A stretch of DNA of 64,000 nucleotides from a virus (IMGVR_UViG_3300021168_000001:1-64000), one strand, 5' to 3'. Shown: positions 10,800 to 59,391, numbered from the stretch's first letter. Numbers and translations: made by a program. Notes: generated by a model from the letters alone, not told the origin.

Positions 10800-11449
10800 A
10801 GCACAAATGGAAAGGCCAGCAATTAGGCGGCAGCCCGGTCGAAGAAACCTCGACGGAGTGGATCTGCTACTGCGATAACTGCGGAACCGAAAGGAACGAC
10901 GACAACAAAGACGAGGTGTGCATCCCGGTTAGCTGGTCTGATTTCAGGCGCGCGGTTCAACTCCAGGATCCTGCACAAGTACAGCGCGCCGCCACTCTTC
11001 TCAGATCAAACAAGACCATGTTCCTTCATGCATACCGCGAAGAACCGATTGTTTATAGATCGATTCAGGTAGCTCTCGATAATGGCCTGCGCGAAGAGGA
11101 TGCGTGGCTTCTGGCTGTGATCGGGTTGCTAGAAGAAAATCGAAAACTGTTTCAAAACGCGCAAACTCTAACAATGTTGGCGCCTCCGCCAATCTACGCA
11201 CCAGAGCGACGTCCTATTCAATGGAACGAAGAGGCGGCATCCATCCCGTTGCTTACGGAAGAGCACTATTTAACCGATGATGCTATCCTTCCGTCCCTTA
11301 CTCTGCCCAATCCATGCGAGATCCGTATAGCGATCACAGCTAGCCATGTGAGCCTGGCCATCGGACAGCGCGACTTTAGTTGGAAGCGCGGCTGCCCCGA
11401 TCTCTCAGGCGCAGGAACATTTCTCGATTCTGCGGAGCCAGATAGATGA
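10796..11449 (+). CDS. Hypothetical protein with Cys pair
   Basis: 217 residues from ATG 10796, overlapping the previous stop. A CDNC knuckle sits near residue 26, followed by helical segments and a Pro-rich middle (APPPIYAPERRPIQW). No family recognised. Its TGA overlaps the ATG of the DNA methyltransferase, so the two are probably co-translated, but a functional link is only inferred. Confidence 0.65.
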   Translation: MKHKWKGQQLGGSPVEETSTEWICYCDNCGTERNDDNKDEVCIPVSWSDFRRAVQLQDPAQVQRAATLLRSNKTMFLHAYREEPIVYRSIQVALDNGLREEDAWLLAVIGLLEENRKLFQNAQTLTMLAPPPIYAPERRPIQWNEEAASIPLLTEEHYLTDDAILPSLTLPNPCEIRIAITASHVSLAIGQRDFSWKRGCPDLSGAGTFLDSAEPDR

Positions 11450-14961: not shown

Positions 14962-15740
14962 TGTCCTTGTTCTCCTCTGTCCTGGTGATTAGTCGCGCCT
15001 TTTCGCATGTTGTCGAGCGCCCACAGCGGTTGAAGGTTACTGTAGTGAAAGCACTGCCTCTGCTGCTGAGCGTCAAGTATGTCGAAAAACGCGCATGGTT
15101 TCTTGTGGTCGACATGCCACTGCCCGTAATTAGACCATGACATTCCTGGCTTAAACTGACTTTCTAGATGAGCTACCAAATCAGCCGTCGTGCAACCGGC
15201 AATCCTCTTGATCGCAAGACTATGGATTGATCTATGCATTAAAGCCTGATGCAATCTGGTACGAAGAATCGTTAACATTCTAAATCTTTCGTCTGTATGG
15301 TAATTCCTCCGATTTCGAGTCGCTGTCTTTTCCTTTCCCCGTTCGCGTGATCTATTCTTTCGATCTTTCGCTGCTCGAACATATGCGCATGACGCGCAGA
15401 TGGCATTAGGTTTGGACGTCATTTTAACTTTACACACGCAGCATGCTATGCGAATCCGATGACGAGTCGAATATGTGCAGTTCCAGCAAATCTTTGTAAC
15501 TCTATTTTTGGTTTCCTTACTGCACTTTATGCAGTGCGGTCTCTTAACCCCAAAACCCTCTTTGTTATATGTCGCCTTATCAATCAATCCCTTTTCTTTT
15601 AAATAGTATGAGGCGCGGTAGGCCTTTACGGCAGCGCGATTAGCGGCCTTCCATTGTTTGGAAACCGCTAATCTGTGATCGCGCTGCTCGGGCGTTTCTC
15701 GCTCAGCTCGCCATTTTCTCGTTTCTCCCGCCGTATTCAT
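14952..15740 (-). CDS. HNH homing-type endonuclease
   Basis: 262 residues. The N-terminal half is basic with repeated CxxC pairs (CIKC, CWNC, CCVC, CASC) forming two zinc ribbons. The C-terminal half carries the HNH core WHVDHKKPCAFFD followed by NLQPLWALDNMRKG, a signature of phage homing endonucleases. The region is AT-richer than its neighbours, suggesting acquisition. The ATG overlaps the stop of the glycosyltransferase gene (ATGA). Confidence 0.85.
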   Translation of the reverse strand: MNTAGETRKWRAERETPEQRDHRLAVSKQWKAANRAAVKAYRASYYLKEKGLIDKATYNKEGFGVKRPHCIKCSKETKNRVTKICWNCTYSTRHRIRIACCVCKVKMTSKPNAICASCAYVRAAKDRKNRSRERGKEKTATRNRRNYHTDERFRMLTILRTRLHQALMHRSIHSLAIKRIAGCTTADLVAHLESQFKPGMSWSNYGQWHVDHKKPCAFFDILDAQQQRQCFHYSNLQPLWALDNMRKGATNHQDRGEQGQCL

Positions 15741-16864
15741 ATCATTAGCTTCTCATGCGGCGCTACGATATTGGGGTCGTCCTCTCCGCGGGAAATAAAG
15801 TACCGACGTAGATCGTCGCGCAACTCCCATTTCTCGGGATCGAACTGCCAGATGCCCTGATAGTCAGGATGCAGATCGCGATAAGGATCGAACTTATTCT
15901 TGGCTAGGATTACGTCGCGGGAGCTGTAGCCACGACGAGTCTTCGATCCGTGAAACATGTGCATGGCCATCGCGTCGACATATCCCACGTTCCGCTTGAT
16001 CCGCTTTGCCTTTTCGCCCCACGCCAGAACATAGTCTTTATAGGCCGGAGCATATTTCTGCGAGTGAATATCAGGCGGCTCCTGGCCGACAAGCTGGTAG
16101 GCCATGTACCAATCTCCATGTCCAAGGATGCAGCGGTCGAGCATGCCGCCGACAGCTTCATAAGCAGAACGCCGAAAAGCATATGCGCCTCCGGTTGCGC
16201 CGACACCCCGTAGAAACTCTCCTTCGATGTGCGAAGGCTCGCCTGGCAACATCGCTTCCTCGTAGTGATGGTGATGATGGTGATGATGGTGGTGCTTGTT
16301 GAACTTGCCATCCGGACCGACGATTCCGTTGTGGTACTCTTTCGAGACCCGGTATCCGTTGTTTATGTAATTGAACAAAAAGGAGCTATTCACCCTGTAA
16401 GGCGCGTTCGCCTGTCCATATACCCCACCAGTCACATCAAGGTAGCTTGAGAATGGCTGCAGCCAATCGTAATGCTGAAGCTGATGGATCGTTTCGAGAG
16501 CCCACCCGACCGTCACGATGTGAAAATCCGCATCGCACGTCATCCCGTATTTCCAGTTTGGCGGAAACAACCGTTGGACAATAACGGACTGGATATTTTC
16601 CTTGAAAAAGCCTTCATGCGTAGTGCGCAGCTGCAGATCAAGCGGATTGTCCGGCGAGGTCACTTCCCAGGGGCGATCACCAAAAGCCAATTCGCCGACA
16701 TACAACTGCACATTCGCCTGGTGAGCCAGGTGATCGCGCAGTTTGTTCATAGTTTCGCGGCGCGTCCTCCAGCGGAATGGGTTGGTATACGCCACAGCAA
16801 CATGCAATAGAGCGTCGTTTGACCATTGCTGCCAAGGCAGGTGGACGTCTGGATGACGATTCAT
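15737..16864 (-). CDS. Glycosyltransferase-like protein with natural His10 tract
   Basis: 375 residues from ATG 16864. The longer frame up to 17164 runs through the terminator upstream and was rejected. The N-terminal half resembles GT-A glycosyltransferases: VAVAYTNPFRWRTRRETM then LYVGELAFGDRPWEV and a DxD motif in GMTCDADFHIV (DAD at 111-113). A later segment (GATGGAYAFRRSAYEAVGG, then LGHGDWYMAYQL) matches the acceptor and catalytic region of GT2-like enzymes. Ten consecutive histidines sit at 191-200 between the two halves. It may decorate virion proteins, phage DNA or the host surface. Donor unknown. Confidence 0.7.
   Translation of the reverse strand: MNRHPDVHLPWQQWSNDALLHVAVAYTNPFRWRTRRETMNKLRDHLAHQANVQLYVGELAFGDRPWEVTSPDNPLDLQLRTTHEGFFKENIQSVIVQRLFPPNWKYGMTCDADFHIVTVGWALETIHQLQHYDWLQPFSSYLDVTGGVYGQANAPYRVNSSFLFNYINNGYRVSKEYHNGIVGPDGKFNKHHHHHHHHHHYEEAMLPGEPSHIEGEFLRGVGATGGAYAFRRSAYEAVGGMLDRCILGHGDWYMAYQLVGQEPPDIHSQKYAPAYKDYVLAWGEKAKRIKRNVGYVDAMAMHMFHGSKTRRGYSSRDVILAKNKFDPYRDLHPDYQGIWQFDPEKWELRDDLRRYFISRGEDDPNIVAPHEKLMI
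16265..16294 (-). repeat. CAY triplet run encoding ten histidines
   Basis: Thirty bases of mixed CAC and CAT codons read in frame within the glycosyltransferase gene. Mixed codons argue for selection or slow divergence rather than a very recent slippage event. Confidence 0.85.
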
Positions 16865-16943
16865 TGTTTGTCCCCGGAACCTTTCGGAAATGATGCTTGA
16901 GGAGAGTATAAGCCCAAGAATGGAATTATTCGGTTGCAGACAC

Positions 16944-16979
16944 AAAAAAACTCCCGAGCACCGCGAAGGCACCCGGGAG
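16944..16979 (-). terminator. Rho-independent terminator, leftward
   Basis: On the minus strand a 12-bp stem with G-T wobbles (CTCCCGGGTGCC paired to GGTGCTCGGGAG, loop TTCGC) is followed by seven T. It lies between the lipoprotein-like gene and the glycosyltransferase, ending the main late transcript before the final three genes. Confidence 0.85.
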
Positions 16980-17015
16980 AATCTGCACCTACAACCTGTG
17001 AAGCCAACTATACCA

Positions 17016-17693
17016 TCAGGCAGCTTCGAGCCGCGGAATACCTGCGAGGATCGCATCGGCCTTTTCGTCCCCGGTCGGTGCGCTGATAATTTCGTTGATC
17101 TTTGCGGCATAGTGCTTCGCATCGAGCGGATGCTGTTCGGTCGGGATCGCCGCCAGCATTGCACGCGCCTCGCCGGCGCCGTTCGTCTCGAGAGAAGTCA
17201 AAGCGGGCAGCACATTCGCCCAGGCCTCGAGCTGCGATAGCACAACCTGTGCGAGATTCTGGATAATGCCAGCCAAGGGAGCGGGAACGCCAATATCACC
17301 GAGCAGCTGCTGCATGGTATCGGTGGCAGCCTTGATCGCCTCTTCGATTTTTCCAAGCAATGTCGTACTCGGATTTGCCTGGTACTCGGCCACCATCGCC
17401 TGGATGTCTTTGATGGCGGCCATGCCCTTGGTAGCAATTTCGGCAATCAACTGAGCTGCCGCTGCCAATGCGGGATCGCCTCCGAGCGCAGCCGCGATAG
17501 CAGTGAGGATAGTTCCAAGGGTTGCCGAGACCAACGGAATCGTTGCCTCGATCGCGTTAAGCCAACCAGGAAGGCCGGCACACCCGGTAGCCATCATGCA
17601 CCCCGCGAAGAGCAGCAAGAGCAGGCCGGACATTTGAATGGCGCGCCGATACGGATAGGCTCGCCGTGCGAGAAGCATGAGGTACAGTTTCAT
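17016..17693 (-). CDS. Putative lipoprotein / membrane-anchored helical protein
   Basis: 225 residues. A basic N-terminus (ARRAYPYRR) precedes a hydrophobic run with lipobox-like sites (LLLFAGC and MATGC, Cys near 32 and 38). The rest is Ala-rich and helical with long amphipathic stretches. It could be an outer-membrane lipoprotein of the lysis system (o-spanin-like) or a superinfection-exclusion protein. Length and composition are not diagnostic. It lies directly after the holin-like gene and before a terminator. Confidence 0.6.
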   Translation of the reverse strand: MKLYLMLLARRAYPYRRAIQMSGLLLLLFAGCMMATGCAGLPGWLNAIEATIPLVSATLGTILTAIAAALGGDPALAAAAQLIAEIATKGMAAIKDIQAMVAEYQANPSTTLLGKIEEAIKAATDTMQQLLGDIGVPAPLAGIIQNLAQVVLSQLEAWANVLPALTSLETNGAGEARAMLAAIPTEQHPLDAKHYAAKINEIISAPTGDEKADAILAGIPRLEAA

Positions 17694-18439: not shown

Positions 18440-21109
18440 TCAAAATGCAACCGCTTGCCACGTGATTATGTCGCCGCTCACCGTAGTGCCAGCGATCGCG
18501 CAGGCCGTCGTGCTCGTGGTGGTCTGCACCATGTTGTTCGCGTCGGCTGCGGTAGTAAGGTCGGTTGCCGAGCACCGCCAACCATTCGGGGCGGTAAGAC
18601 CCGGTGTGATGGTCACAGTGCAGGTACCCGTCGTTCCGCTGGCGAACGATCCACCGGATGATCCTCCGACCGCCGCCGTCAGAGAGCACCCCGAGACGTT
18701 CTGCGACCCGCCCGCCACGATGTAGTTCGGCGTGACTTTGGTGGCTGTGACTTGGGGAGTGACGACCGCAGGCGTAAGCGCTTGCGTCGCTGGAAGAGTA
18801 GGGGCGCCAGTCAGCCCGTTGCCGGATGGATTGCTGCTGCGGTAGGTGTCGATGAACGCTGTCACGGCCGCAGGAGACGGAAAGACCGTGGACCCAAGGT
18901 GCGTGCCACCGGCAATCGTGGTAGCGGTGCAGGTCGGCCCTACCGCCGTGCAGAAGTTGGTCGTATCCGTAGGCGGGATAACGGTGTCGGAGCTGCCAAC
19001 GTACATCGAAATGGGGACCTTGGACGCGGTAAATACGGCTGTGTTCAGCGTCGGGTCATATGGCGCGAAGGCCGATGCGGGTCCAGCATATGCGGCTTGC
19101 ACTACCTTGTTCGGCGTGTAGGCGGTTCCAGCGGCGTAGGCTCCCGGCCAGATGTAGAGCGGGTCGTAATAGCCTAGCGCGGGCGCATTGAAGTAGCCAT
19201 TGATGGGTTGCCACGTGGTCGGGCTCGATGCTGGCGTCTGGCCTGTGCCGGGGAAGATGTTCACATAGGAAGGCCCGTAGGCCGCGTTGATGACCGTCGT
19301 CAGGCCAGCCTGATAACCTGCGCCGTCCGTCCATGCGCCGGTGAGGTTAACAGCGCCAGAAATGCACATAATCCCCGCAGATCCCTTATTGGCCATTTCA
19401 TAGCCCAAAGCGTTGAGGCATCCCATGGACATGCCAAAGTGGTACAGTTGCCACGTCGCGGGCAGCAATCTCCTGATCGTTCCAATCTGGTTATCTCTAT
19501 AGACCATTCCCGCAGGGTTGTTCCAGTTGCTTGAGGTCGGCCCTGAGTAATTATTCGCCCCCGACCCATCTCCGGTCATGACAGCCAGCAAGCAATTATC
19601 GGCCAAGACTGCAGAGTAGATCGTGTTGGCATTCACATATCCGAGCGCGGCCGGCGTCGCGTTCGCGTGCCAGATATTGAACAGGCATGTCTTGTTGCTC
19701 GATCCGTAGGTTCCCGGCACGGCGATTGCCGCTTCTTGAGACTGTGCGCTCGGCCCAGGCGTGTCGTTCAGGATCTTGGGCGCGAGCGACATAGGCGGGA
19801 GGAATAAGCCGTCAGTCGGTCCGTGCAACGCTCCGACCGAAGCGTATACGCCGATTACCTTGTTGGTTGCCGAGGTGACCTGGATCCTAACCTTTGAGAG
19901 ATTAGTGAACAGCGGAACCCCGCCGTTGGTGAACGTGGCTGGCTCCTCAAAGGTGTATACGAGGTTGTCGAATGCGGCCTGAAATGCAGGCCCGCTGCCA
20001 AACGTAGGGCCGAAACCTAAAACGTTGGCCGCTACCGGGAATCCGGAGGTCCACACATACTGCCCGTCGCTCTGGATGGTAAACCAGTAGCTCATGGGGT
20101 TGGTGATCCCGCCGCCAAACCCGTATTGGTTGTATTGCGACCCGCTGAACTGCCACCCGCCGCCGATCAGCGCCCCGTTGATGTTGTACTTGATCCCCTT
20201 GTGGAAGTCGTTCCCGGAATCGCTCACGATGACAGTGGCGTTGTTCGTGGTGTCGCCATTCACTTGCGTGAGGAAAGCTACGCGCCAAGGCTGAGCCGGG
20301 TTGATCACCTGCGGGAGATTGATGTCGCATGTCCCCTGCACGCCGTTGGTCGTTGCGACCAGGCCCCCGCCAGAAGCGTTGCTCAGATTCGAAACGGTAT
20401 TACAACTCGCCGTGGTGAGAGACGCGATATACAGGTCGTTCGTCGGCATCACGTAGTGCGTGGCGGGAGTGAGGGAATTATTGGTGATCCCCGAAGCAAT
20501 AGAGGCTATTGCCGCGAAATAATTTGTTCCATCAGACAACACCGTCATCGAAGTTGGAAGCGTAGCCGATCCTGCTGGAAGCGTGAGCGAACCGGATGCG
20601 CCATTGATATTTTGCCCACTCGGCGCAACGGTGACCACCCCGGACCCGTAATTTATGATGTTTATCTGCTGCTTTGCAGCCGGCTGCGATCCACTCGCCA
20701 CCAGCGTGATCGTGAAAGTCCCTGATCCTACCGTTATCGTCTTACACTGGGAAAAATCAGCGGCGACGACTTGGTAAGTCCCGGTCTGCGGATTAATAGC
20801 AGATCCAGCACTGAGTAAGATCGCACCGCTGGACCCGCCTCCAGTTAGGCATGCCCCAGCGGTGACGCCAGTTATCGTTCCGGCATTGCCATCCAATACC
20901 CATCCACCGGGAGTGCACGTATATGGCTTGTTGTTCGTGATGTCAGTGTAAGGCGCGCCATAATTCAGAGCCGTGCAACTCCCACCGCTCGGAGCGCCGG
21001 CGCCGGTACTCCTCGGCCAGTTTATCTGCACCGTTGGGTCGATCTTCGTTTGTCCATGGAGCATCACTGCAAACGCAATCAGACACAACACGCTGACAAT
21101 TCTTTTCAT
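18440..21109 (-). CDS. Secreted fibre-like protein with alpha/beta-hydrolase domain
   Basis: 889 residues. It starts with a Sec-type signal peptide (MKRIVSVLCLIAFAVMLHGQ, cleavage expected near residue 19). Residues 20-75 form a module shared with the giant spike at 54421 (NYGAPYTDITNNKPYTC). A repetitive Gly/Thr/Ser-rich beta region follows to about 450. Residues about 460-757 look like an esterase-type alpha/beta hydrolase: nucleophile elbow GMSMG (Ser561), Asp708 in VGSSDTVIPP and His737 in GGTHLGS. The C-terminal tail is again beta-rich. It could be a receptor-directed deacetylase or depolymerase. The signal peptide is unexpected for a virion fibre assembled in the cytoplasm. Confidence 0.75.
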   Translation of the reverse strand: MKRIVSVLCLIAFAVMLHGQTKIDPTVQINWPRSTGAGAPSGGSCTALNYGAPYTDITNNKPYTCTPGGWVLDGNAGTITGVTAGACLTGGGSSGAILLSAGSAINPQTGTYQVVAADFSQCKTITVGSGTFTITLVASGSQPAAKQQINIINYGSGVVTVAPSGQNINGASGSLTLPAGSATLPTSMTVLSDGTNYFAAIASIASGITNNSLTPATHYVMPTNDLYIASLTTASCNTVSNLSNASGGGLVATTNGVQGTCDINLPQVINPAQPWRVAFLTQVNGDTTNNATVIVSDSGNDFHKGIKYNINGALIGGGWQFSGSQYNQYGFGGGITNPMSYWFTIQSDGQYVWTSGFPVAANVLGFGPTFGSGPAFQAAFDNLVYTFEEPATFTNGGVPLFTNLSKVRIQVTSATNKVIGVYASVGALHGPTDGLFLPPMSLAPKILNDTPGPSAQSQEAAIAVPGTYGSSNKTCLFNIWHANATPAALGYVNANTIYSAVLADNCLLAVMTGDGSGANNYSGPTSSNWNNPAGMVYRDNQIGTIRRLLPATWQLYHFGMSMGCLNALGYEMANKGSAGIMCISGAVNLTGAWTDGAGYQAGLTTVINAAYGPSYVNIFPGTGQTPASSPTTWQPINGYFNAPALGYYDPLYIWPGAYAAGTAYTPNKVVQAAYAGPASAFAPYDPTLNTAVFTASKVPISMYVGSSDTVIPPTDTTNFCTAVGPTCTATTIAGGTHLGSTVFPSPAAVTAFIDTYRSSNPSGNGLTGAPTLPATQALTPAVVTPQVTATKVTPNYIVAGGSQNVSGCSLTAAVGGSSGGSFASGTTGTCTVTITPGLTAPNGWRCSATDLTTAADANNMVQTTTSTTACAIAGTTVSGDIITWQAVAF

Positions 21110-38109: not shown

Positions 38110-39177
38110 TCAAATACCATCCGCGTATATCATCGTTTGGTTGCGCTTGAAGATCACCTGTGAGATGCAACCAACGAAGCCGGTCTGGTAGGCGCCGCCA
38201 GCCTGCATCGTCGGGACTGTGATGGATGTCTTCTTCGGCTGCGGAATCTTGAGGTAGAGCGACTTCTTCGAATTCTTGTAGAAGACCGCGCGATCAAGAC
38301 CGCCCGCGCCCGTTCCAGAAATCCACGGGTTGGGAAGGGAGTTGATTTTGAAGTTGATGCCGTTCTTGGCCGCCACACACTCACGCTCGATGTACGCGAT
38401 TGTCGAGAGCGCCACGGCCGATCCACCGATCGCCATCGGTTCGCTGAGAGTGGCGAACTGGCTATACGGAAGCAGGAGAGAATCCGGCATCGCCTCGGTG
38501 ATGTCATATCCGGAGTTCTGTACGACCTGGTTGAGCGCATTGTTGACGTCAAACAGGATCTCGGTCGGCGATTTCTTCACCCATGTGGTCGATCCGCCAG
38601 CGCCAGCTGGCACCACGAATTCAACGACGTTCGGGTTGTTGATGAGTCCCGGGTCGCCGAGGAATCCCTTATAGGTGACATAATCGAGAGCCTTCACCCA
38701 GTTGATGTCGACAGACTCCTCATACATCTCCTGAAGGGAGATAGGAGGAGGCATGCCGCTACGCTTTGCCGTCGCCAGTCGCTCGAGGTCGATGTAGGTG
38801 ATGGTCATGGCCATCGCCCACGGGTAGGTCTTCCAGAGCGACTTCTGGATATCAGCCTGCGCCTCGGGGATATCCGTGTTGTTGGTTCCCTGCAACCCAA
38901 AGAACTGGGTTCCAGTGGTACCGTAGTTGGTTGCGAAAGCTGCGAGATACTGCGGGAACCCTCCGCCTACATCCACGGAAATATCCCGAGCATGAGTCGT
39001 TGCCTGGAGAGGCCGGACAACGTCAGTATCGATGAGTTCCAATTGGCTTTGAAGGAACGCAAATCCAGATGCGCCGGCCGCGTCGAACGCCCTGCCACGC
39101 CCTCTTGGAGTTCCATCGAAGCCACGAGCGCGTCTAATCAATTCCCGATCGCGCTGACGAGAAGCGAATGTATTCAT
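38110..39177 (-). CDS. Major capsid protein (DUF2184-like)
   Basis: 355 residues. The pattern (TYIDLERLATAKRSGMPPPI, LDYVTYKGFLGDPGLINNP, MPDSLLLPYSQFATLS, then RNQTMIYADGI at the end) matches DUF2184-type HK97-fold major capsid proteins. Neighbours are the cement protein and the protease/scaffold, the usual capsid cassette. The N-terminal 40 residues are basic and Gly-rich and may be trimmed or face inward. Confidence 0.87.
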   Translation of the reverse strand: MNTFASRQRDRELIRRARGFDGTPRGRGRAFDAAGASGFAFLQSQLELIDTDVVRPLQATTHARDISVDVGGGFPQYLAAFATNYGTTGTQFFGLQGTNNTDIPEAQADIQKSLWKTYPWAMAMTITYIDLERLATAKRSGMPPPISLQEMYEESVDINWVKALDYVTYKGFLGDPGLINNPNVVEFVVPAGAGGSTTWVKKSPTEILFDVNNALNQVVQNSGYDITEAMPDSLLLPYSQFATLSEPMAIGGSAVALSTIAYIERECVAAKNGINFKINSLPNPWISGTGAGGLDRAVFYKNSKKSLYLKIPQPKKTSITVPTMQAGGAYQTGFVGCISQVIFKRNQTMIYADGI

Positions 39178-40023: not shown

Positions 40024-41733
40024 TTACTTCACCTCCGCTGTGATCTTTTTACCGTGGCGATTGTTGTAAAACTCCTGGAGCTTCGTGATGTCGTCGCCGC
40101 CAGTCGCTCCACCACCGGCATCGGCTGCCCTCGCACGGCTCGCACCCGCGAAGCGCGCATATCCATTGCCGCTTGTTGAGAATGAATTCCCACTCACGCG
40201 GCGCATCTGCGCGTTGAACGCCTTGATGAGCGCCGAATCACCGCTACGCGCGATCAGCGGCTTGATGGCGCGCAATGCTTCTCGGGCCGCGGCGTCGGCT
40301 GCCCTCGCGAACTCTGCCGTATCCCGCGCGCGCTTCTTGCGTGGATCACCACCCTTGGTTCGCTTATAGCCTTCAGAGCCGCGAATCGGATGGAAGTTTC
40401 CACCTTCCGAATAGCCCTCGACGTCATCGGCGCGCTTGCGATCGCCAGCGTGGACGACTTCAGGCTCATCCTCTTCGTCGTACTCATCCTCATCGTCAGG
40501 ATCGGCGTCGTCGCCCTCTGCGCCCTCTTCGGGAATCAGGTCAGGATTGTCGGCATCGCCGCTTTCTCCGCCTCCCTCACCTTCGTGCATCGGCTCGTGC
40601 TGTTCTTCCTGAAGGTAGTTGTCCATCAATTTGCGGAGCTCGGCGATATCGGCATCTTCGGACCGGCGAGACTTGGCGTCCATCATCTTGTCAAGTGCCG
40701 AATGCAGCCTTTCACGCTCTTCGTCAGGTTCACCATCGCCAGCCTTACGATCATCTGCGCGGCGGTCATCGGAACGGCGACTATCGTCCGCTTTCCTGTC
40801 GTCGCTGCGGTGGCTATCGTCAGCGCGACGGTCATCGCTCTTTCGATCAGCGGCCTGCACAATTTTCGGCTCGGGTGGAATGTCCATCTGCGCTCCCTCA
40901 TCGTTGGCTCGCGCGGTTCCGGTTCTGGTGACTTTGCTCAGCTCCAGAGCGGCATCGGCCAACGATTCAGGATCCACACTCTCATCTTTGGCCGCATGCT
41001 GCAGCCCGTGGCCAAAGATACTCTTAAGCGTGAGTTTCATCAGCTTTTTCTCCTGTGGTGGATCGTTCTTTGTTGACGTTGAGGTTGAGTTACTGGCTGG
41101 GGTTTGTGGCTCAGGCTCAACCGCAGCCTGTTCCTCAACCGTGGCCACTTCTGGAGCGGCATCCATAATGCGTGCTTCGGGGCCCGCCCTACCCTTTGTA
41201 ACCACGGCCACATGATTGCCGACCATGGAGACTTGGAGAACGACATCGCCATCGCGATCAATGCTGTAGTCGTAGCCGCACGATACTTCGCGTTTGCGAT
41301 TCTTGAGAATCTCGGATATCAGGGGCTCCGCGGTAACAACCAGATCTCCGATGAGCGGCCACTCGCCATCATCCAAAACGTCTTTACCTTTGCGAACGTT
41401 TTGCACATGGCCACGCGCCAGATCATTGAAGTTTTCTGGCGTCACGAATTCCATGTTTGGCGGGTGATTGTCGGTGACAGTGGCGGCTTCGAAGCTATGG
41501 ATTGTGTCCGGATGAAATACCTCCTCCGGCGACCGATATAGACGCACCATCGCATTAGGATTTGAAGTGTCTATGCCGAGATCGTTGGCTCGCTCCTCGG
41601 GAAGCTCCGATACTTTGTAATCCTGAAATCCAGTTCTAGCTATTGTTACATCGTGGCAGACAATAGATCCGTTAGGCATCTGCGTGATGTTGTCGCTGAG
41701 CCGGCTTCCGAAGTACCCGATTCCTGTTTTCAT
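40024..41733 (-). CDS. DUF2213-type capsid maturation protease and scaffold
   Basis: 569 residues. The N-terminal domain (about 1-195) is DUF2213-like: ITQMPNGSIVCHDVTIARTG, HSFEAATVTDNHPP and REVSCGYDYSIDRDGD. The remainder is scaffold-like: an RDD-rich repeat tract, a very acidic stretch, a conserved ERLHSALDKMMDAK helix and a basic C-terminal tail (ARFAGASRARAADAGG). Such protease-scaffold fusions direct HK97-type capsid assembly and are later degraded. Confidence 0.8.
   Translation of the reverse strand: MKTGIGYFGSRLSDNITQMPNGSIVCHDVTIARTGFQDYKVSELPEERANDLGIDTSNPNAMVRLYRSPEEVFHPDTIHSFEAATVTDNHPPNMEFVTPENFNDLARGHVQNVRKGKDVLDDGEWPLIGDLVVTAEPLISEILKNRKREVSCGYDYSIDRDGDVVLQVSMVGNHVAVVTKGRAGPEARIMDAAPEVATVEEQAAVEPEPQTPASNSTSTSTKNDPPQEKKLMKLTLKSIFGHGLQHAAKDESVDPESLADAALELSKVTRTGTARANDEGAQMDIPPEPKIVQAADRKSDDRRADDSHRSDDRKADDSRRSDDRRADDRKAGDGEPDEERERLHSALDKMMDAKSRRSEDADIAELRKLMDNYLQEEQHEPMHEGEGGGESGDADNPDLIPEEGAEGDDADPDDEDEYDEEDEPEVVHAGDRKRADDVEGYSEGGNFHPIRGSEGYKRTKGGDPRKKRARDTAEFARAADAAAREALRAIKPLIARSGDSALIKAFNAQMRRVSGNSFSTSGNGYARFAGASRARAADAGGGATGGDDITKLQEFYNNRHGKKITAEVK
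40739..40856 (-). repeat. RADD/RSDD tandem repeat in the scaffold
   Basis: The encoded segment repeats a six-residue unit of the form R-A/S-D-D-x-R/K about eight times (RRADDSHRSDDRKADDSRRS is a sample). Alternating Arg and Asp pairs suggest a polyampholyte helix or disordered linker. Confidence 0.7.
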
Positions 41734-42528
41734 TTACCGAGTATCTCTTTCCCGTGGATCACGTTTCACGCCCATCTTGACTGCGCACGTTTCGCAGACT
41801 CGGCCCTGAGGGGTCGATATCATCCGCGAGGTTTCCTTTCCGCATCGTGCGCATTCGCTTTTCGCGTCGCCAGCCTTGCGCCCACGCACCGCATCGATAC
41901 AGCGATCGAGCGTGGCATGCAGGCGAGCGCGGATCGCGGCACGTCCGGTCTTTGATTGCGCTGGGTCGTACATCTCGGCTGGCGCGTCCTTGCTACGCAC
42001 GTCATCGTATGGCTGTAGCGGACGCGAGCGATGCTCAGAATGCTCGAAACCGCCTTCGCCTTCGAAGTCGTCCTTCATTCGCCGTTTGCGGTCCATCACC
42101 CGATCGAGCGCAGAGTGCATCCGTGCGCGGTGGTCCATGCAGTCGTTCGCCCTCACCATCTCATAGCTCCCTTCACCGCTCGGACTGCCGCGCGTGATCA
42201 CATCGTCTTCTTCGAATTCGGGGAGATTCTCTTCTACTTCAAATCGATCCGCACCATCGCCATCGATCGAGAATCCGCAGGTTGTCGAATGCCCCACTCC
42301 AGCACACCACTGCACCAAAGCGAGGAACCTTTCGAAGCGCTCGAGCACCTCGGCTGGCGCCGTGATTGTATAGGTCCGCGTTTCACCGGGATCCGCATCG
42401 GCGGTCATGCCTCTCGCATTCGCGGTCGCATAAAATACGGATTTCGCCTTTTTGGGGTCGGAGTAGGTTTTGCGCATTGCTCGCATCACCTTGTTGCCCT
42501 CGCCTTTGAAGTACGCTCCTATTGGCAT
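41734..42528 (-). CDS. Head-region protein with two H-x-x-LD motifs and zinc ribbon
   Basis: 264 residues from ATG 42528 (a TTG seven codons earlier is possible). The N-terminal domain (GAYFKGEGNKVMRAMRKTY, ANARGMTADADPG) is followed by an acidic region. Two copies of a helix motif come next (ARMHSALDRVMDRKRRM and RARLHATLDRCIDAVRG), then a C-terminal zinc ribbon (CARCGKET, then CETC). The same helix motif occurs in the scaffold and in the 48032 protein. Possibly a capsid assembly partner. Confidence 0.6.
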   Translation of the reverse strand: MPIGAYFKGEGNKVMRAMRKTYSDPKKAKSVFYATANARGMTADADPGETRTYTITAPAEVLERFERFLALVQWCAGVGHSTTCGFSIDGDGADRFEVEENLPEFEEDDVITRGSPSGEGSYEMVRANDCMDHRARMHSALDRVMDRKRRMKDDFEGEGGFEHSEHRSRPLQPYDDVRSKDAPAEMYDPAQSKTGRAAIRARLHATLDRCIDAVRGRKAGDAKSECARCGKETSRMISTPQGRVCETCAVKMGVKRDPRERDTR

Positions 42529-42533
42529 CGCAA

Positions 42534-42836
42534 TTAGTTCCCTGTGCAAATATTCAGGATTGCCTTCTTGCCGATTGAAATGGCCGCAATGTAAGTAGCG
42601 GCCCCAAGCACCAGGTATTGCGTGTCGCCGGCATTCACCATGAGGCTCGTGTTATTTACCGCAACCACAGTGACATCGCCCAACTGGACGGCGGCCGGGT
42701 CCGGACCAATATTCACCACGCGCACGACGGTATCGCCGCCGAGCGTTCCAGGCAATGCGACTCTGGATGATGTGGAACCGGCGCCCATCCCGATACAGGC
42801 GTCTGGGGCGAATGCAGATTGCGGCGTGGCTGGCAT
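42534..42836 (-). CDS. Small beta-rich structural protein
   Basis: 100 residues, beta-rich (TVVRVVNIGPDPAAVQLGD), probably a small jelly-roll or decoration-type protein. No family recognised. Lies between the GNAT gene and head genes, same direction. Confidence 0.6.
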   Translation of the reverse strand: MPATPQSAFAPDACIGMGAGSTSSRVALPGTLGGDTVVRVVNIGPDPAAVQLGDVTVVAVNNTSLMVNAGDTQYLVLGAATYIAAISIGKKAILNICTGN

Positions 42837-43271: not shown

Positions 43272-43630
43272 AGGATTCCGAAGCAATCGACGCGCACCAG
43301 GCCGCGTCCGGTTCCATCCTGCGGGTGCGGATCCCAGGCCATCTGTCCGTTCAATCCGACTACCGCATGCAAGTGCCCGCGTGGGCTCTTGCCCTCGATC
43401 GTGTGATACACGGGCCCATTCTTGAATGCCTGTTTCAACCCAGGCGAATCGATGTCAACCTGAATGTAATAGAGGTTGAATTGCTTTAAAAAATCCTGAG
43501 TTTGACTTAGAAACAAATCGTCGGTAGCGAATTCAGGGACATCGGCTTCTTTTATTTCGAGGATCGATGCCAGACATGCCTGAAAACAGCGGCCATTTTT
43601 CCCGGTGCGGCTTTGCGTCTGTGGGATCAC
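43259..43630 (-). CDS. Papain-like/C39-like cysteine peptidase-fold protein
   Basis: 123 residues. GRCFQACLASILEI carries the candidate nucleophile Cys (residue 15), and GHLHAVVGLNGQMAWDPHP the His and Asp of a C39-like triad. A known family of small phage proteins has this pattern. Activity unproven. The ATG overlaps the portal gene's stop, so it is coupled to the portal fusion. Confidence 0.7.
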   Translation of the reverse strand: MIPQTQSRTGKNGRCFQACLASILEIKEADVPEFATDDLFLSQTQDFLKQFNLYYIQVDIDSPGLKQAFKNGPVYHTIEGKSPRGHLHAVVGLNGQMAWDPHPQDGTGRGLVRVDCFGILCAR

Positions 43631-46600
43631 GCTTTCACCGCTCCGGCTGGTCTGTTGAGGTTTGCCGTCGCGAGCCAGTACTTGAAGTCATCGATTTGCA
43701 TCGGCGAGATGTCCATCATCACTTCATCGGCACGGTGATGAGCTTTAGGATAGGCTCGTTTCACCTCGCCAAGCGTATCGAATCCCAGGAACACCTTGTG
43801 CTCATCGAATCCCTTAGAAGTATGCAGATGGCGCTGGTCAACGATATAAACCCAATCGCTCTCAGGGTCCGGCCCGATGTAACAATCGAGCGAATCACCA
43901 TCGGCTCCGGTGAACCCTTCGATATATCCATAGTGTGCCGGCATCCGGACCGACCATCCTTTGCCCGATCGAATATGGCCCTTGGGTGTCTCGACCACAC
44001 ACGTAAGACCATGAATGTTGAACTCCATCACGCCCGGGTCATCGGCGTCGGCGGCGCGCCCTGGCTCGTCCATTTCAAGCGGATCGAAGCCAAGCATGTC
44101 GATCACCGACCGCGGCGTGCGCTCGAGCTCTGCATCATCATCGACGTCGTCGAAGTCGCCTTCGTATTGGCGCCAGTCGTCATCGGTCCGCTGCGCCGAT
44201 CCATAGTGCACTTCGGGCAATTCCACACCAAATGCCTTATCGAAGGCCTCTTTGAAGAAATTGAGTTTGGTATCTCCGGCCCTCGCCGGCTCGGCGCTGC
44301 CCTCGCTCGCAGATTTCCATCCCGAGAAGATCTGCGGAGGAATATAGGACTGCAACGCGACGATTGGTGTGTTGCCGAGTTTCTCGGAAACAGCCTTCGC
44401 AACCTCCATTACCGCTTTCTTGTACTCCTTCGGATTGGTCGGGGCTTTCACTTTCTCGACAAGGCCGTTCGCGGTCTCGGCCGCCAGCGCGGTGCGAAAG
44501 TCCTTTGTCTTGAAGCCGCCGTGATCGAGGTTGTCCTTCGTGAAGTCGCGCAGGCTCGCATCGCTCACGGACGGAAAGAGATTGCCTTTCTCACCGGCCT
44601 TGGCACGCAGCTCTTTCAGCATCGATCCAAGCTGTGCGTCCTCGACCGGCAACGATATAGTCACGCCCTTCTTCCCAACGAAGCGCAGTCGCACGCTGTT
44701 GCCAAGCTGCCATACATGATGCCCCTGCAAGGTCGACGCACCATAGGCCTTTACCGCGCCTCCCGTGTCCGAATCGCTGCCGGGCCGGATCCCAGTCTTG
44801 CGCACCAGGTACATGCAGTCGGCATGATCCCGTACCTTGGCGTCCTTACTCTTGCGGAAGCCGTCCAGCTGCTTGTCGATCAGGCTCATGTTCTTTTGCA
44901 GTGCCTGGACGCGCTGGAACTTCAGGTCCGCCTGGCTGTTCTTGAACGTAGGCGAGTAGACATATTGCTTGCGACCTTTCGAATCGAGACCGGTTGCCAA
45001 CAGGTCGGCCTTTGGCATCGGCGAGATTCGAACATCCTTCCACGCTGGCGGGATCTTCAGCGACTTGGCATGCTCCGGCCAGTCCTCGCGACTGGAGTAG
45101 GACTGAAGGTGCGCGGTCTTTGTCGATTCCTCGCCCCCCGAACCGCCAGTGCTTTCTTTATCGGGATCGCTGGACCCTTCGCCACCACCGGGCTCCTCAC
45201 GCGGTCCCATGCCCTTCCGCCGACGCTCCCAGGCCTTCTTTGAAGCTTTTGAATCATCGGTCGCCCTAGCCACCGCAGATAGCGCTCGCTTCTCGGCGCG
45301 CTGCGGCCCGAACAGCTTCTGCATCGTCGCAAGGCGCTTGTCGTCCTGCTCCCCTTCAGGATCGCCGCCCGGCTCTTTGCCGCTCTCGCCCTTGCTCCCT
45401 TGTCCCTCTTCTTCTCCACCCTCGCCTGTAAGCGATTCAAGACCACCCTCGCCGCCGCCCTGCTCGCCCATGCTCATGACGTCATCGGACAGAGCCGCGA
45501 TCCGCTCATCGGTAAGATTCGTTCCGAAGCCAGTTGCGTCGGAGGCCTGCTTCACCTCTTCGGCGCCAGCCCGCGGCGACATGATGCCGAGGTTGATGGC
45601 GACCGCCACCGTATCAAGAGTGGCCTTGGCAAGCTCCGACTTTTCCTTTTCATCCAATACGCGGACGGATGGGAAGTTGAGGTCCAGATCGTCGGGGATC
45701 TCACCGAGCTCCGACATGCAAAGCACCGGGTACAGTTTCTCGAGCTGTGGCCGCAGTTCAACGTCCTGGTCGGTGGCGATCTTCTCCTCGTAGATTCGCT
45801 CATCGGCATCGTTCGATTGCCCAAGTCCGCTGATCGTGCGCCCCCAAAGACGCGTGACCGGGATTTGTGTCGCACCTGAGATGTCCAACTGAAACTGCTG
45901 ATAAACATCGCTGAGGCCGGTGAAGGTATAGTTCACGGCCTCGATCCCGCCATCGGCCGGAAGCGGCACCAGGCTCTGGTTTGACAGCAAGTGGTTCAGG
46001 GTTGTCATGCGCTGCTGAAACTGTATCGCGGCTTGCTGGTTCATGCCGACGCCAGAAAGAACCTTTGCCAGTTCCGGAAACTTCATACCAAGAATGCAGG
46101 CGCGGAACGTGAGCGATAGTATGTTCCAACTCATGTTGTCGCGCTTGCGAATCTCTTCATAGGCCGGCTCGATCACCGATATGCCCCAGTAAGTCTGCGC
46201 CTCATACTCCGGCGTCGGCACCTCTGGCCCGCTGAAGCGCAGTATTCGCGACGAGTGCACTAGAAAACTCTCGGCATCCGGCGCAGTGACCCGGTACATC
46301 TCCGGCTTGTTGAAGTCGGTCGGCCGATTGATGTCCGTGCAGATATCGCCGTGCGGCTGAATGCCTGTCCAGCGATCGAACGGGATCAGGCCTTTGTAAT
46401 CGCCGACGCCGATCGTGTCAGGATCCAGCGGCTCCTCGAGATTATCCTCTTGACCATCGATCACCATGAGTGCGCCGCCGCCCCCGAAAAGCCTCGCCCA
46501 CTTCAGCGCACGGAGAAGCGTCGATTTGGTCTGCGTGCGGCGAATCTTGCGATCGATCTTTGTCAGATCTTCGGGAGGGATATCGCTCGTCAGCTTCGGC

Positions 46601-46893
46601 CAGGCCCTCACCATATCCTGCGCTGGCGTATCAACGATGCGCCGAGAAATCCAGTGGTTCCGATAGAGAGTTATCAGGAGCCAGTAGTTGAAGCTCAGCC
46701 TATCGAGTTCATACGTCGCTGCCTCGGCAAGATTTGGTGTGCCGTATCCCATGCGAGCCGGCACATTTGAAAAATAGTCGAATGCCTGCGCATCGAATCC
46801 TTGTCCGAAACCCATCCTCTGGAGCTGCGCCTGCCGCTCCATATCCGGATTGGTCCCAGCCCTGATCCTACGGCGCTGCTGCAATTCAGGCAT
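43627..46893 (-). CDS. Portal protein fused to type IB topoisomerase and InPase-like domain
   Basis: One uninterrupted 1088-residue frame. Residues about 50-470 are a DUF1073-type portal (LLITLYRNHWISRRIVDTPA, IYEEKIATDQDVELRPQLEK). A long acidic Gly/Glu linker (475-600) follows. Residues about 605-860 are a type IB topoisomerase: PPAWKDVRISPMPKADLLAT, GRKQYVYSPTF, catalytic Arg703 (TGIRPGS), Lys741 or 742 (VGKKGV), Arg800 (KTKDFRTALAAE), Asn841 (LGNTP, where viral enzymes often have His) and nucleophile Tyr850 (QSYIPP). Residues about 956-1078 match the InPase domain of polyvalent proteins: DGDSLDCYIGPDP, YIVDQRHLHTSKGFDEHK. The portal gates DNA packaging. The appended enzymes could be packaged or relax DNA at the portal. 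Confidence 0.88.
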   Translation of the reverse strand: MPELQQRRRIRAGTNPDMERQAQLQRMGFGQGFDAQAFDYFSNVPARMGYGTPNLAEAATYELDRLSFNYWLLITLYRNHWISRRIVDTPAQDMVRAWPKLTSDIPPEDLTKIDRKIRRTQTKSTLLRALKWARLFGGGGALMVIDGQEDNLEEPLDPDTIGVGDYKGLIPFDRWTGIQPHGDICTDINRPTDFNKPEMYRVTAPDAESFLVHSSRILRFSGPEVPTPEYEAQTYWGISVIEPAYEEIRKRDNMSWNILSLTFRACILGMKFPELAKVLSGVGMNQQAAIQFQQRMTTLNHLLSNQSLVPLPADGGIEAVNYTFTGLSDVYQQFQLDISGATQIPVTRLWGRTISGLGQSNDADERIYEEKIATDQDVELRPQLEKLYPVLCMSELGEIPDDLDLNFPSVRVLDEKEKSELAKATLDTVAVAINLGIMSPRAGAEEVKQASDATGFGTNLTDERIAALSDDVMSMGEQGGGEGGLESLTGEGGEEEGQGSKGESGKEPGGDPEGEQDDKRLATMQKLFGPQRAEKRALSAVARATDDSKASKKAWERRRKGMGPREEPGGGEGSSDPDKESTGGSGGEESTKTAHLQSYSSREDWPEHAKSLKIPPAWKDVRISPMPKADLLATGLDSKGRKQYVYSPTFKNSQADLKFQRVQALQKNMSLIDKQLDGFRKSKDAKVRDHADCMYLVRKTGIRPGSDSDTGGAVKAYGASTLQGHHVWQLGNSVRLRFVGKKGVTISLPVEDAQLGSMLKELRAKAGEKGNLFPSVSDASLRDFTKDNLDHGGFKTKDFRTALAAETANGLVEKVKAPTNPKEYKKAVMEVAKAVSEKLGNTPIVALQSYIPPQIFSGWKSASEGSAEPARAGDTKLNFFKEAFDKAFGVELPEVHYGSAQRTDDDWRQYEGDFDDVDDDAELERTPRSVIDMLGFDPLEMDEPGRAADADDPGVMEFNIHGLTCVVETPKGHIRSGKGWSVRMPAHYGYIEGFTGADGDSLDCYIGPDPESDWVYIVDQRHLHTSKGFDEHKVFLGFDTLGEVKRAYPKAHHRADEVMMDISPMQIDDFKYWLATANLNRPAGAVKA

Positions 46894-48031: not shown

Positions 48032-48679
48032 TTAGGTTGTGGTTCGTACTGCATCGATTACTCGATCGAGCGCGATGTGCATCCGTTGCCGATAAACGGA
48101 ATCGCTATCCGTAGCCTTGGCCGCGGCACGCTTCGCACGCATCGTCTCCCAGGCTTTCTTGGCCGCCGCGCTGCGTCCACCACCGCTTCCAGCTGCTGGC
48201 TTCTCCGCAGTCTTCGGCCGTTCGCTGCTTGAAGACGATGGCTGCTTTCGAGCTTCGCGCTTCTGTTGTTGCTCCTGCTCCCGTTTTCCGGCCCGCTGCC
48301 GAGACCGTTCGTGCGCTTGGCGCATAAAGTCTTCCCACGCGGATCGCGCAGCCGGTCGCGGCGAATGCTGGGATCCTTGCTGCTGATGCTGGCCGCGTTG
48401 CCGTGCAGCATTCGGGCCTAGCGTTTCGTAATTGTGAGACCCGGCCTGGTAGGAAGGCTCGTACTGATGGACCTTCTCGAGAAAGGCATTGGCCTCGGCA
48501 GTGTTACCAACCTTGCGGCTCGACGTCTCCATCGCCTTGAGTTTATTCAAGATCTCGGGAGATACATCTTTGCCGATCGCGTCCATCGCGCGAAAGATCT
48601 TCTGGATGTCGTTGGCACGGCGCACATTAGGTCTGCGTTCGTACAAATGTTCCATCCTTGTCTTCGCTCGGTCGCTCAT
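48032..48679 (-). CDS. Head-region protein with C-terminal H-x-x-LD motif
   Basis: 215 residues. Helical N-terminal half (VRRANDIQKIFRAMDAIGKD), a Gln/Arg/Ser-rich low-complexity middle, an AAAKKAWETMRAKRA segment similar to the portal linker (SKKAWERRRKG), and a C-terminal RQRMHIALDRVIDAVR motif. The same motif is found in the scaffold and in the 41734 protein. Likely an internal head or scaffold-associated protein (inference). Confidence 0.6.
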   Translation of the reverse strand: MSDRAKTRMEHLYERRPNVRRANDIQKIFRAMDAIGKDVSPEILNKLKAMETSSRKVGNTAEANAFLEKVHQYEPSYQAGSHNYETLGPNAARQRGQHQQQGSQHSPRPAARSAWEDFMRQAHERSRQRAGKREQEQQQKREARKQPSSSSSERPKTAEKPAAGSGGGRSAAAKKAWETMRAKRAAAKATDSDSVYRQRMHIALDRVIDAVRTTT

Positions 48680-49047
48680 TGCGGCCTTGTCACGGCTGGC
48701 GCGTCAGCTGGATATTGTGCGTTCTCAAGCCTCTGCACTTTCGGAATTACATAGGAGTCCTGAGTCTGCGATACCTGCTGCAATTGAGACCGCATCGAGA
48801 GCACCTGTTCAACAAGATCACGCTGCCTCTGCGAGTCGTTCATTACCGATGCACGCACGGCCAACTCGAGGCGCCCCAGACGCTGGTCGATCTCTTCATC
48901 ATGCCTCTCGTGCTCGAGAATCTGCCTGAGCGCCTGTGTCTGCCGGTCATCGGCATATTTATTTATCTTCGCCAGACCGCCAAAGATCGATCCGACAATC
49001 GTTAGAGCCGTGGCCACCGTCGCGAGAGTGATGTGTTTCGGCGTCAT
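48676..49047 (-). CDS. Membrane-anchored coiled-coil protein
   Basis: 123 residues from ATG 49047, chosen because it overlaps the MuF stop as ATGA. The longer frame would begin inside that gene. One transmembrane helix near the N-terminus (ATVATALTIVGSIFGGLA), then a long coiled coil rich in Glu, Arg and Gln. The layout resembles i-spanin or holin-associated proteins but the location beside head genes is unusual. Confidence 0.6.
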   Translation of the reverse strand: MTPKHITLATVATALTIVGSIFGGLAKINKYADDRQTQALRQILEHERHDEEIDQRLGRLELAVRASVMNDSQRQRDLVEQVLSMRSQLQQVSQTQDSYVIPKVQRLENAQYPADAPAVTRPQ

Positions 49048-49892
49048 GCCGCTGTGCGCTCCTTCATCCCGCTCAGGTTCCTGAAAGCGATTCGAGTCAT
49101 GCTCATGATCCGGCCGTTCCGATGAACGCGGTGTGGCCATTTCACATCATCGAGTGTGAGCAGCGGAGATTGAGGACAACGACAATTTGGAAAAGTTCCT
49201 CCGTGCCCACGTCCCAATGTGCTTTTCTCTCCAATTAAAGCCTCTGGCGATGGCGGGTCATCATAGAACACGATCACACCTTCCATATTTTTATGACTCG
49301 GCCTCACCCTCGTATCTTCCGACGTCAACCATTCGTAGCACGGTAGCCCGAGATGCTCGGCGCGCGCCTGCGTGAGAGCCGCGCTTGCCTTCATCGTTTC
49401 GGTCCGCGCGATCAGATTAATCCTGGTTCGCGTGAGTTGCGGAAACCGGTGTCGCATCATCTTGGCGATCGCTTCCGGCCGGGCCCCTGCCTGCTGCGCC
49501 TCCGCGATCTCGCCCGTCAACTGCTGAGCGACCTTTCGCGGAATACTCGAGATATAGGCCGCATTCTCATCAACTATCCTGCGAAGTGCAATCCCGACCG
49601 GCCCGGCCATTTCCCGCTGCAGGAGCCGATGTAACATTGAGCTCCGTTGCGCCCGCGTCGCCGCTTCACGCCAGGTTCTCGCGTTCAGCACGTTGACCCA
49701 CCGGCCCATCTCGCCGGCGACATAGGCTGCGGCATCAGCAACGTCTCGCCGCTCGCTCACCGCCGCCAGTTCTGCAATCCACTGCTCGAAGCTTACATCC
49801 GGCTTGCGTTGGGGGATGCTCGACAACATGAGTCTGCGGATCAGCCGCTGATACTCGAGTTCGATCCGTCGCGTAACCGTAAAGTCACTCAT
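49044..49892 (-). CDS. Minor head protein, SPP1 gp7/MuF type
   Basis: 282 residues. The MuF domain is clear at about 155-260: RINLIARTETMKASAALTQA, YEWLTSEDTRVRPSHKNMEG and GGTFPNCRCPQSPL. MuF proteins sit on the portal inside the head and help DNA delivery. Some carry toxin domains, but none is visible here. Adjacent to the head-region genes upstream of the portal fusion. Confidence 0.87.
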   Translation of the reverse strand: MSDFTVTRRIELEYQRLIRRLMLSSIPQRKPDVSFEQWIAELAAVSERRDVADAAAYVAGEMGRWVNVLNARTWREAATRAQRSSMLHRLLQREMAGPVGIALRRIVDENAAYISSIPRKVAQQLTGEIAEAQQAGARPEAIAKMMRHRFPQLTRTRINLIARTETMKASAALTQARAEHLGLPCYEWLTSEDTRVRPSHKNMEGVIVFYDDPPSPEALIGEKSTLGRGHGGTFPNCRCPQSPLLTLDDVKWPHRVHRNGRIMSMTRIAFRNLSGMKERTAA

Positions 49893-58056: not shown

Positions 58057-59391
58057 TCACGCCGCCAAGAGTCGATAATCCGAAAACACTTCTTCAACCC
58101 CGTACCGCAGCGCATCGCACCCATGGTCGTTCGTTTTTATCGGTGCCTCTTCGCCGCGCTTAATCGCGTCCGGATCCCACATATACGACGGCAGTTCGCG
58201 AATCAGCTCTTCGCATTCGGCACTGATCCGAATCCGTCTTTGAGTAAGCACGCTCGAGGTCTTGCGGATCCCATCGAGCACATCGTTGTTGGCATCCACT
58301 ACCCAGAGATTTGCAGCTGACAACTCATTGCGAAAGCTGGCGGCCGAAGGATCGAGAACGATGCGCGGCTGGCTGCGCCGTTGCACGCGCGATACACTCA
58401 CAATGCCGGCTGTGTTCTTGTAGCCGTCTGGACTAAGCCAGCAAACGATGTCGTCTTTGTACTGCGAGTCTGTCTTTTGACGCATCTCCTTCGCGGAGTC
58501 CCACCAATACTGACGATCGATCCAAAGCGTCTTGCCGTCGTCAATTGCCTCGAGCGCCGTGCACGGGTTGGCCGTGCCATAGTCCATGAAGACGATGTGG
58601 TCGACATAACCGCCAAATCCATAGAGCCCTGGCCCGATCTCTTCAGGGTGGTAAATCAGATCGGATGACCAGGCACTGCCATAGATTGCGCCTTCGGCTG
58701 CGACCCATCGGCCGAGAATGTAACGCAGAAAGAAGACGCCGCTTTGCGAAGCTTTGATCGTTCGCTTTGAATTCGGGTCCAGGTTCGGATTGTCGTCCAG
58801 CGTGAACTCGATGTGCGTTAGGTCCGGCTTGAAGCTTTTGCCATCGATGACTTCGGTCTTCAGGTAGTGCGTCGGCGGGCCCGGGTTTGTGGTTCCGTAG
58901 AACCGCGATCCTTTTGGCGAAAGCCGCTGCATCAGAACAAAGAAGAAGGACCGCGGCCACTCGATCACCTCATCCCCGATCGCAACACCAATCGTCATTC
59001 CCAGAATGTTCGTGTATGACGCCTCATCGTTGGCGCCAATCACGAACCATTGAACTCCGGCGCCGTTCTCACCCAGAAACAGCCAGAGCTCACCGGTTGA
59101 CTGATTGTAGGAGTACTTGTCTTTACCGATGATTTCGAACAGGTCGATGAGAATGTTCTTGTGAACCTTGCCCTTCGACTTGCCGATAATGACGCGCCGG
59201 CCCTCCACCTTGTATCGGCAGAGGTGAAGAATCACCTTCGCTGTAACGGCCCAGGTCTTGGCGGACCGGACGGACCCGACAAGAATGTTGTACTTTCTGT
59301 CGAGCTCGGGCGGGTGCATGATGAACGCGTGCGCCTTGCGTCCGAACTGTTTAACTTTTTGTACAGGAGCAATCGACGTCCCGGTTGCCAA
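58057..59391 (-). CDS. terL: Terminase large subunit (PBSX-like)
   Basis: 444 residues from TTG 59391 (the first in-frame ATG would remove 24 residues before the ATPase core). ATPase: Walker A GSVRSAKT (39-46), Walker B IGVAIGDEVIEW (Asp140, Glu141), coupling motif FYGTTNPG. RNase H-like nuclease: Asp270 (DHIVFMDYGTA), VLDPSAASF and the late NDHGCDALRY. It packages DNA into the head by cutting concatemers and pumping DNA through the portal. Confidence 0.92.
   Translation of the reverse strand: MATGTSIAPVQKVKQFGRKAHAFIMHPPELDRKYNILVGSVRSAKTWAVTAKVILHLCRYKVEGRRVIIGKSKGKVHKNILIDLFEIIGKDKYSYNQSTGELWLFLGENGAGVQWFVIGANDEASYTNILGMTIGVAIGDEVIEWPRSFFFVLMQRLSPKGSRFYGTTNPGPPTHYLKTEVIDGKSFKPDLTHIEFTLDDNPNLDPNSKRTIKASQSGVFFLRYILGRWVAAEGAIYGSAWSSDLIYHPEEIGPGLYGFGGYVDHIVFMDYGTANPCTALEAIDDGKTLWIDRQYWWDSAKEMRQKTDSQYKDDIVCWLSPDGYKNTAGIVSVSRVQRRSQPRIVLDPSAASFRNELSAANLWVVDANNDVLDGIRKTSSVLTQRRIRISAECEELIRELPSYMWDPDAIKRGEEAPIKTNDHGCDALRYGVEEVFSDYRLLAA

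Follow-up and report, generated by a model that had tools for sequence, protein, structure and literature searches.

The window analyzed here, a 64,000-nucleotide stretch of DNA from an uncultured virus of bacteria (IMGVR_UViG_3300021168_000001:1-64000), encodes a portal protein which carries, within the same polypeptide, a type IB topoisomerase (TopIB) and a polyvalent-type inorganic pyrophosphatase (InPase). Judged by the sequences of its relatives, the portal-TopIB fusion is recurrent and of multiple origin, spanning four portal families. Neither the papers nor the phage records searched appear to describe it, the portal-InPase fusion being already known. This recurrence points to a hitherto undescribed enzyme carried inside virus particles. 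We consider it fairly probable that tailed phages repeatedly mount TopIB on their portals as a virion device for handling torsion, which would act either at the portal during packaging and ejection or, once proteolytically released, on the incoming genome.

The fusion is encoded by one uninterrupted open reading frame (ORF), running from 46893 to 43627 on the minus strand with no in-frame stop over 1088 amino acids (aa). From the N-terminus on, the protein consists of a portal of family PF06381, a disordered linker, a complete TopIB, and the polyvalent-type InPase; with several enzymatic domains in one head-linked polypeptide, it fits a polyvalent virion protein. A first-pass annotation of the stretch had proposed these domains and coordinates without giving a strand; the coordinates stand, with the gene on the minus strand, and the domain assignment was borne out by Pfam and PDB sequence searches. 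The components of the ORF are:

43627..46893, minus strand: whole portal-TopIB-InPase ORF, 1088 aa
45604..46677, minus strand: portal core PF06381 (aa 73-430); Pfam expectation value (E) 2.6e-93; PDB 8hds, 9b41, 8fvh
45094..45483, minus strand: Gly/acid-rich disordered linker (aa 471-600); AlphaFold predicted local distance difference test (pLDDT) about 30 over 474-591
45256..45267, minus strand: RATD (aa 543-546), candidate cleavage site of the prohead protease ahead of TopIB; from motif enrichment, post hoc
44299..45093, minus strand: topoisomerase IB domain (aa 601-865); Pfam, AlphaFold2 with Foldseek, catalytic residues
44344..44346, minus strand: nucleophile Tyr850; 2f4q alignment, invariant in every non-truncated relative
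44059..44220, minus strand: LPEVHYG...LGFDP segment (aa 892-945), propeptide-like; disordered in the AlphaFold model
44047..44058, minus strand: RAAD (aa 946-949), candidate cleavage site of the prohead protease ahead of InPase, suggested by the motif
43672..44025, minus strand: polyvalent-type inorganic pyrophosphatase (aa 957-1074); Pfam E 3.8e-33, conserved acidic residues

The match to Phage_portal_3 (PF06381) is near full-length (313 bits, profile positions 3-356 of 357), and in the PDB sequence search the Pam3 portal (8hds) aligned with aa 56-439. The Pseudomonas phage portal gp19 (9b41), itself a portal-InPase protein, matched both the portal and the InPase regions, which together with the Pfam match (PF18823, 114.6 bits) upholds the earlier call of a polyvalent-type InPase; the putative metal-binding acidic residues E968, D998, D1000, D1003, and D1030 of this domain, together with K1033, are invariant in 10 relatives. 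PHROGs assignments were concordant, naming portal and InPase-bearing minor head proteins. By homology to 9b41, 8hds, and 8fvh, the portal would form a 12-mer at one capsid vertex. In the AlphaFold model of the full-length protein the topoisomerase is folded and residues 474-591 are disordered, with the InPase being poorly modelled from a shallow alignment.

The topoisomerase assignment is carried by sequence, structure prediction, and active site. Pfam recognized Top1B_N_bact at aa 610-637 (E 3.7e-9) and Topoisom_I at aa 649-845 (E 2.5e-19), and the Deinococcus TopIB (2f4q) aligned with aa 610-859 in the PDB sequence search (E 2e-20). Alignment to 2f4q revealed a complete catalytic set of R703, K741 (of GKKG), R800, N841, and Y850; all five residues are invariant across 76 phage and Deinococcus sequences, except for one truncated contig without the Tyr. 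The AlphaFold2 model of aa 601-870 reached a mean pLDDT of 91, and all 22 PDB matches found by Foldseek with E<=0.001 are TopIB enzymes, variola topoisomerase aligning with a template modelling (TM) score of 0.80. Model, Foldseek, and Pfam agree on the TopIB fold of an N-terminal beta domain and a helical catalytic domain. The fold and catalytic residues proposed in the first-pass annotation are in place. A tyrosine recombinase was rejected, as XerH and Cre rank below all TopIBs in Foldseek with E above 1e-3. Enzymes of the TopIB family work without ATP or metal. Since the catalytic residues are invariant and the ratio of nonsynonymous to synonymous substitution rates (dN/dS) is 0.06-0.17 in seven pairs, the phage TopIB is very likely active and under purifying selection.

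A scan of viral contigs with the topoisomerase alignment yielded 173 relatives, from which 80 loci were kept, 69 of them non-redundant (4 truncated). TopIB of the window's clade is fused C-terminally to a portal in at least 30 of the 69, all from uncultured viruses, and is a separate gene with a portal gene at the same locus in 12; in 27 no portal was detected with the profiles used. The portals bearing TopIB span the Pfam families PF06381, PF05136 (L083, with L094 just below the cut-off), PF04860 (L090), and PF06074 (L082). Elsewhere TopIB is joined to NUDIX, to an ADP-ribosyltransferase domain, or to MuF, the latter represented by a weak Pfam match in L102 and by sequence only in L058. The arrangement of the modules varies as well: portal-TopIB-InPase occurs in the window, portal-TopIB followed by InPase in L027 and L028, and portal-InPase-TopIB in L038, L044, L052, and L075, and in L033 a portal-InPase ORF abuts a separate TopIB ORF. 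When viral contigs were scanned for relatives of the entire protein, close portals (~63% identical; L001-L007, L009) proved to have mostly InPase and no topoisomerase, whereas other portals bear the topoisomerase without InPase. Two further loci show unusual content. The 281-kb virus record L060 holds two TopIB genes, an unfused member of the portal-type clade (329 aa) and one of 564 aa. A 1060-aa ORF in L032/L064 (5335-8514) comprises TopIB, an LPQVYYG...LGFDP segment, the module tag described below, and a NUDIX domain; its N-terminal part looks ParB-like, by eye only.

The portal-TopIB fusion was not found among 50,697 phage records, which contain distant TopIBs only (27-33% identical by tblastn), standalone where annotated. 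In 84,980 bacterial and archaeal genomes three loci match, all in metagenome-assembled genomes, and one of them (L106) is of phage type; a cellular or prophage gene is therefore not supported, the phage clade being distinct as well. A single branch with full support separates all phage TopIBs from 28 cellular ones. On the TopIB tree, truncated rows excluded, the portal fusion state changes at least 16 times; this was a quick tree with weakly supported deep branches, so the number of changes is approximate. The starred branches alone force at least six changes for PF06381 portals, and a single clade of portal-fused TopIBs, the group being labelled with the tree in view, was rejected by the approximately unbiased (AU) test (p-AU 2e-79). 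The phenomenon is broader than the first-pass annotation had described.

Several known systems share parts of this architecture. The portal-InPase fusions of E217/Pa193-like phages and BcepF1 (Iyer et al. 2017, PMC5512222; PMC10329688; PMC11042391) likewise have a C-terminal polyvalent-type InPase on the portal of a contractile-tailed phage, but are devoid of a topoisomerase, which in the window lies between portal and InPase. Their C-terminal residues past the barrel are unresolved in the head, those of E217 and Pa193 past residue 528 being not built or without density (PMC10329688, PMC11042391). In polyvalent and MuF multidomain virion proteins, head proteins bear strings of enzymatic domains, NUDIX and InPase among them, as found here; the main text of the polyvalent-protein survey names no topoisomerase IB. 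The enzymes of Deinococcus radiodurans (2f4q/3m4a) and poxviruses (2h7f) have fold and catalytic residues in common with the window TopIB, but are standalone, whereas the phage enzymes form a clade of their own and are either joined to head proteins or encoded next to them. TopIBs are also encoded by large phages (Lu11, PaBG, Motura, Rhizobium phages, and BS162P1), but these are only 27-33% identical in the tblastn matches and annotated as genes of their own, and no portal fusion was seen. Vaccinia virus, a eukaryotic virus, encapsidates a type I topoisomerase active in early transcription (PMC12188299 and its references), which is standalone without portal fusion; the parallel supports a role after entry, though only by analogy. 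A literature search for a portal with a topoisomerase IB returned nothing relevant; it covered open-licence papers only, so this absence is no proof. As far as the papers and phage records searched reach, the earlier statement that no such portal is known holds.

The 103-kb virus record to which the window belongs comes from a contractile-tailed phage. Its genes include tail sheath, baseplate, DnaB helicase, and an SbcC-like protein, and the portal gene lies within the head cluster, for which the following neighbors are relevant:

40024..41733, minus strand: DUF2213 head maturation protease with a C-terminal scaffold-like tail rich in RAxD; Pfam, PHROGs
38110..39177, minus strand: major capsid protein, its N-terminal RGRAFDAAGAS resembling the putative site; Pfam, PHROGs, N-termini of relatives
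49044..49892, minus strand: MuF head morphogenesis protein; Pfam PF04233, PHROGs
58057..59391, minus strand: terminase large subunit; PHROGs

Release of the TopIB and InPase cargo inside the head and its ejection with the genome is the model we favor over a topoisomerase tethered at the portal and over an effector directed at the host, and we give it an even chance of being correct. The active TopIB would enter the capsid on the portal C-terminus, which by homology to E217 and Pa193 would leave the barrel into the capsid lumen; because the portal C-terminus projects into the capsid in those phages, TopIB and InPase should both be located inside the head. The head maturation protease would probably then cleave the [K/R]-A-x-D sites that precede each of the two enzymes, and TopIB and InPase, thus released within the head, would be ejected together with the genome. 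TopIB might then ease the torsional stress of the incoming genome in first transcription and replication, while InPase might clear pyrophosphate or a nucleotide signal. Within this model, we infer enzyme activity, virion presence, cleavage, ejection, and the physiological role. It is supported by the repeated occurrence of the fusion, on portals as well as on further head proteins, and by the gene position in the head cluster, and injected polyvalent proteins have been described in NUDIX, InPase, and MuF contexts (PMC5512222).

The putative processing sites are the basis for the cleavage step. In 16 portal-cargo linkers and InPase leaders, [K/R]-A-x-D occurs 24 times compared with 2.9 expected from shuffles (largest shuffle 10), corresponding to a density of 9.7 per 1000 aa compared with 0.7 for the remaining genes of the window. 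In four relatives (L001, L027, L035, and L041) the protease tail contains 5-12 copies compared with about 1.1-1.5, and RALD, RAFD, or RGFD is found at the N-terminus of the capsid protein in the window, L027, L035, L041, and L080. The prohead protease of SPN3US cleaves after A-x-E (PMC10052503), a motif which the [K/R]AxD sites resemble; the resemblance is a lead for cargo cleavage, no proof. If they are protease sites, the domains would be freed from the portal in the mature head, favoring action in the host after entry, the alternative raised in the first-pass annotation.

A second motif accompanies the cargo. Upstream of most phage TopIBs stands a tag of the form [FW]-x-E-x-[DEK]-HPR-(n)-G-[KQE]-F (matched by regular expression in 50 of the 69 loci, compared with 1.4 expected, a few of the 50 matches falling elsewhere in the segment). 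It is also present upstream of NUDIX and other cargo modules in phage head-cluster proteins, e.g., in L015, L045, L061, L070, and L071, and A-x-D stands no more than 12 residues upstream of 37 of 70 tags compared with 19.9 expected. The window protein itself is without the tag, which has the appearance of a boundary mark between modules or of a signal for targeting. In the pieces tested, neither the LPEVHYG segment nor the DHPR/GKF tag matched a Pfam family, except that pieces extending into TopIB matched the beginning of Top1B_N_bact. A weak DUF7211 match was seen in L085.

Several points weigh against release and ejection. The [K/R]AxD expression was picked post hoc, after examples had been seen, and the sequences are related, so these statistics are optimistic; moreover, among the more distant relatives several have protease tails without enrichment. 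No virion proteomics was found for these uncultured phages, freed folded domains would have to pass down a contractile tail, and a domain could also act before assembly.

The main competing explanation leaves the enzyme in place: up to 12 TopIB copies, held at the inner mouth of the portal on a flexible linker of 120 aa, would relax DNA twist during packaging or exit, including torsion between the transcribed incoming genome and its capsid-anchored end. Fixed copies at the channel that relieve supercoils are a role put forward in the first-pass annotation, whose interpretation is partly supported; we regard tethering as possible, if rather doubtful. The repeated fusion to four portal Pfam families and the rejected single origin suggest that the portal position matters, and the linker is long and disordered. 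Rotation of DNA in packaging is debated; according to PMC3185743, which cites work on end-supercoiling in phi29, rotating DNA would bring supercoils, whereas revolution-without-rotation models need no swivel. However, TopIB also occurs without portal fusion (in MuF and NUDIX proteins, and alone), so tethering is not required, and the putative cleavage sites separate TopIB from the portal. Whether viral DNA twists in packaging or entry, and needs relief, is still debated, and a topoisomerase that became portal-fused by more than one evolutionary route makes this question directly testable. If a torsion-handling device is real, torsional stress in genome delivery would be a real constraint which many phages solve with a packaged enzyme. 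With TopIB, the enzyme classes that phages may carry as virion cargo gain a new candidate, and the candidate cleavage signal together with the [DEK]HPR..GKF tag could find other such cargo.

An unlikely third explanation is that the ejected TopIB alters host DNA topology or counters a topology-sensing defence, as has been suggested for other polyvalent domains. In its favor, TopIB is found alongside InPase, NUDIX, and ADP-ribosyltransferase modules in multidomain proteins linked to the virion, and InPase has been proposed to act on infection nucleotides (PMC5512222). On the other hand, the data point to no particular defence, and the enzyme is accounted for just as well by relaxation of the phage's own DNA. 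Less probable still is a role before assembly, with the fused enzyme acting on replicating or concatemeric phage DNA in the infected cell and recruiting portals before packaging. The portal nucleates head assembly, and a DNA-binding enzyme on the portal would fit this scenario; nevertheless, here and in related contigs TopIB is located in the head cluster by portal, protease, and capsid genes, not by replication genes.

The first-pass annotation had raised an assembly error joining two genes, and the two junctions fare differently. For portal-TopIB it was rejected, since numerous contigs, independent of each other, share this junction. The joining of TopIB to InPase appeared in none of the other fetched loci and so rests on the window contig. 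In L027 and L028 a separate InPase ORF overlaps the end of the portal-TopIB ORF and opens with an LPEVHYG...LGFDP-like segment, followed by R-A-x-D and InPase; in L008 such a segment alone forms a small ORF. In the window, both domains are joined in frame with ~30 additional residues, therefore not by a one-base slip, and the composition by codon position is continuous, which makes an error here unlikely. An assembly artefact or inert passenger domain, for which the single-contig junction would speak, can practically be dismissed in view of the recurring portal-TopIB fusion, the invariant active site under low dN/dS, and the open frame.

Some observations concern other genes of the window. Two large proteins near the tail genes (18440-21109 and 15737-17164, minus strand; 889 and 475 aa) match neither Pfam nor PHROGs. 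A DNA methyltransferase (N6_N4_Mtase) at 11446-13770 (plus strand) is interrupted by an intein-like domain (PF14890, 190-459, slightly short of its cut-off). The motif H.[AT]LD[RK][MVC][MI]DA is repeated in the head-cluster proteins at 41734-42549, 40024-41733, and 48032-48679 (all minus strand) and is possibly a scaffold or core-targeting element.
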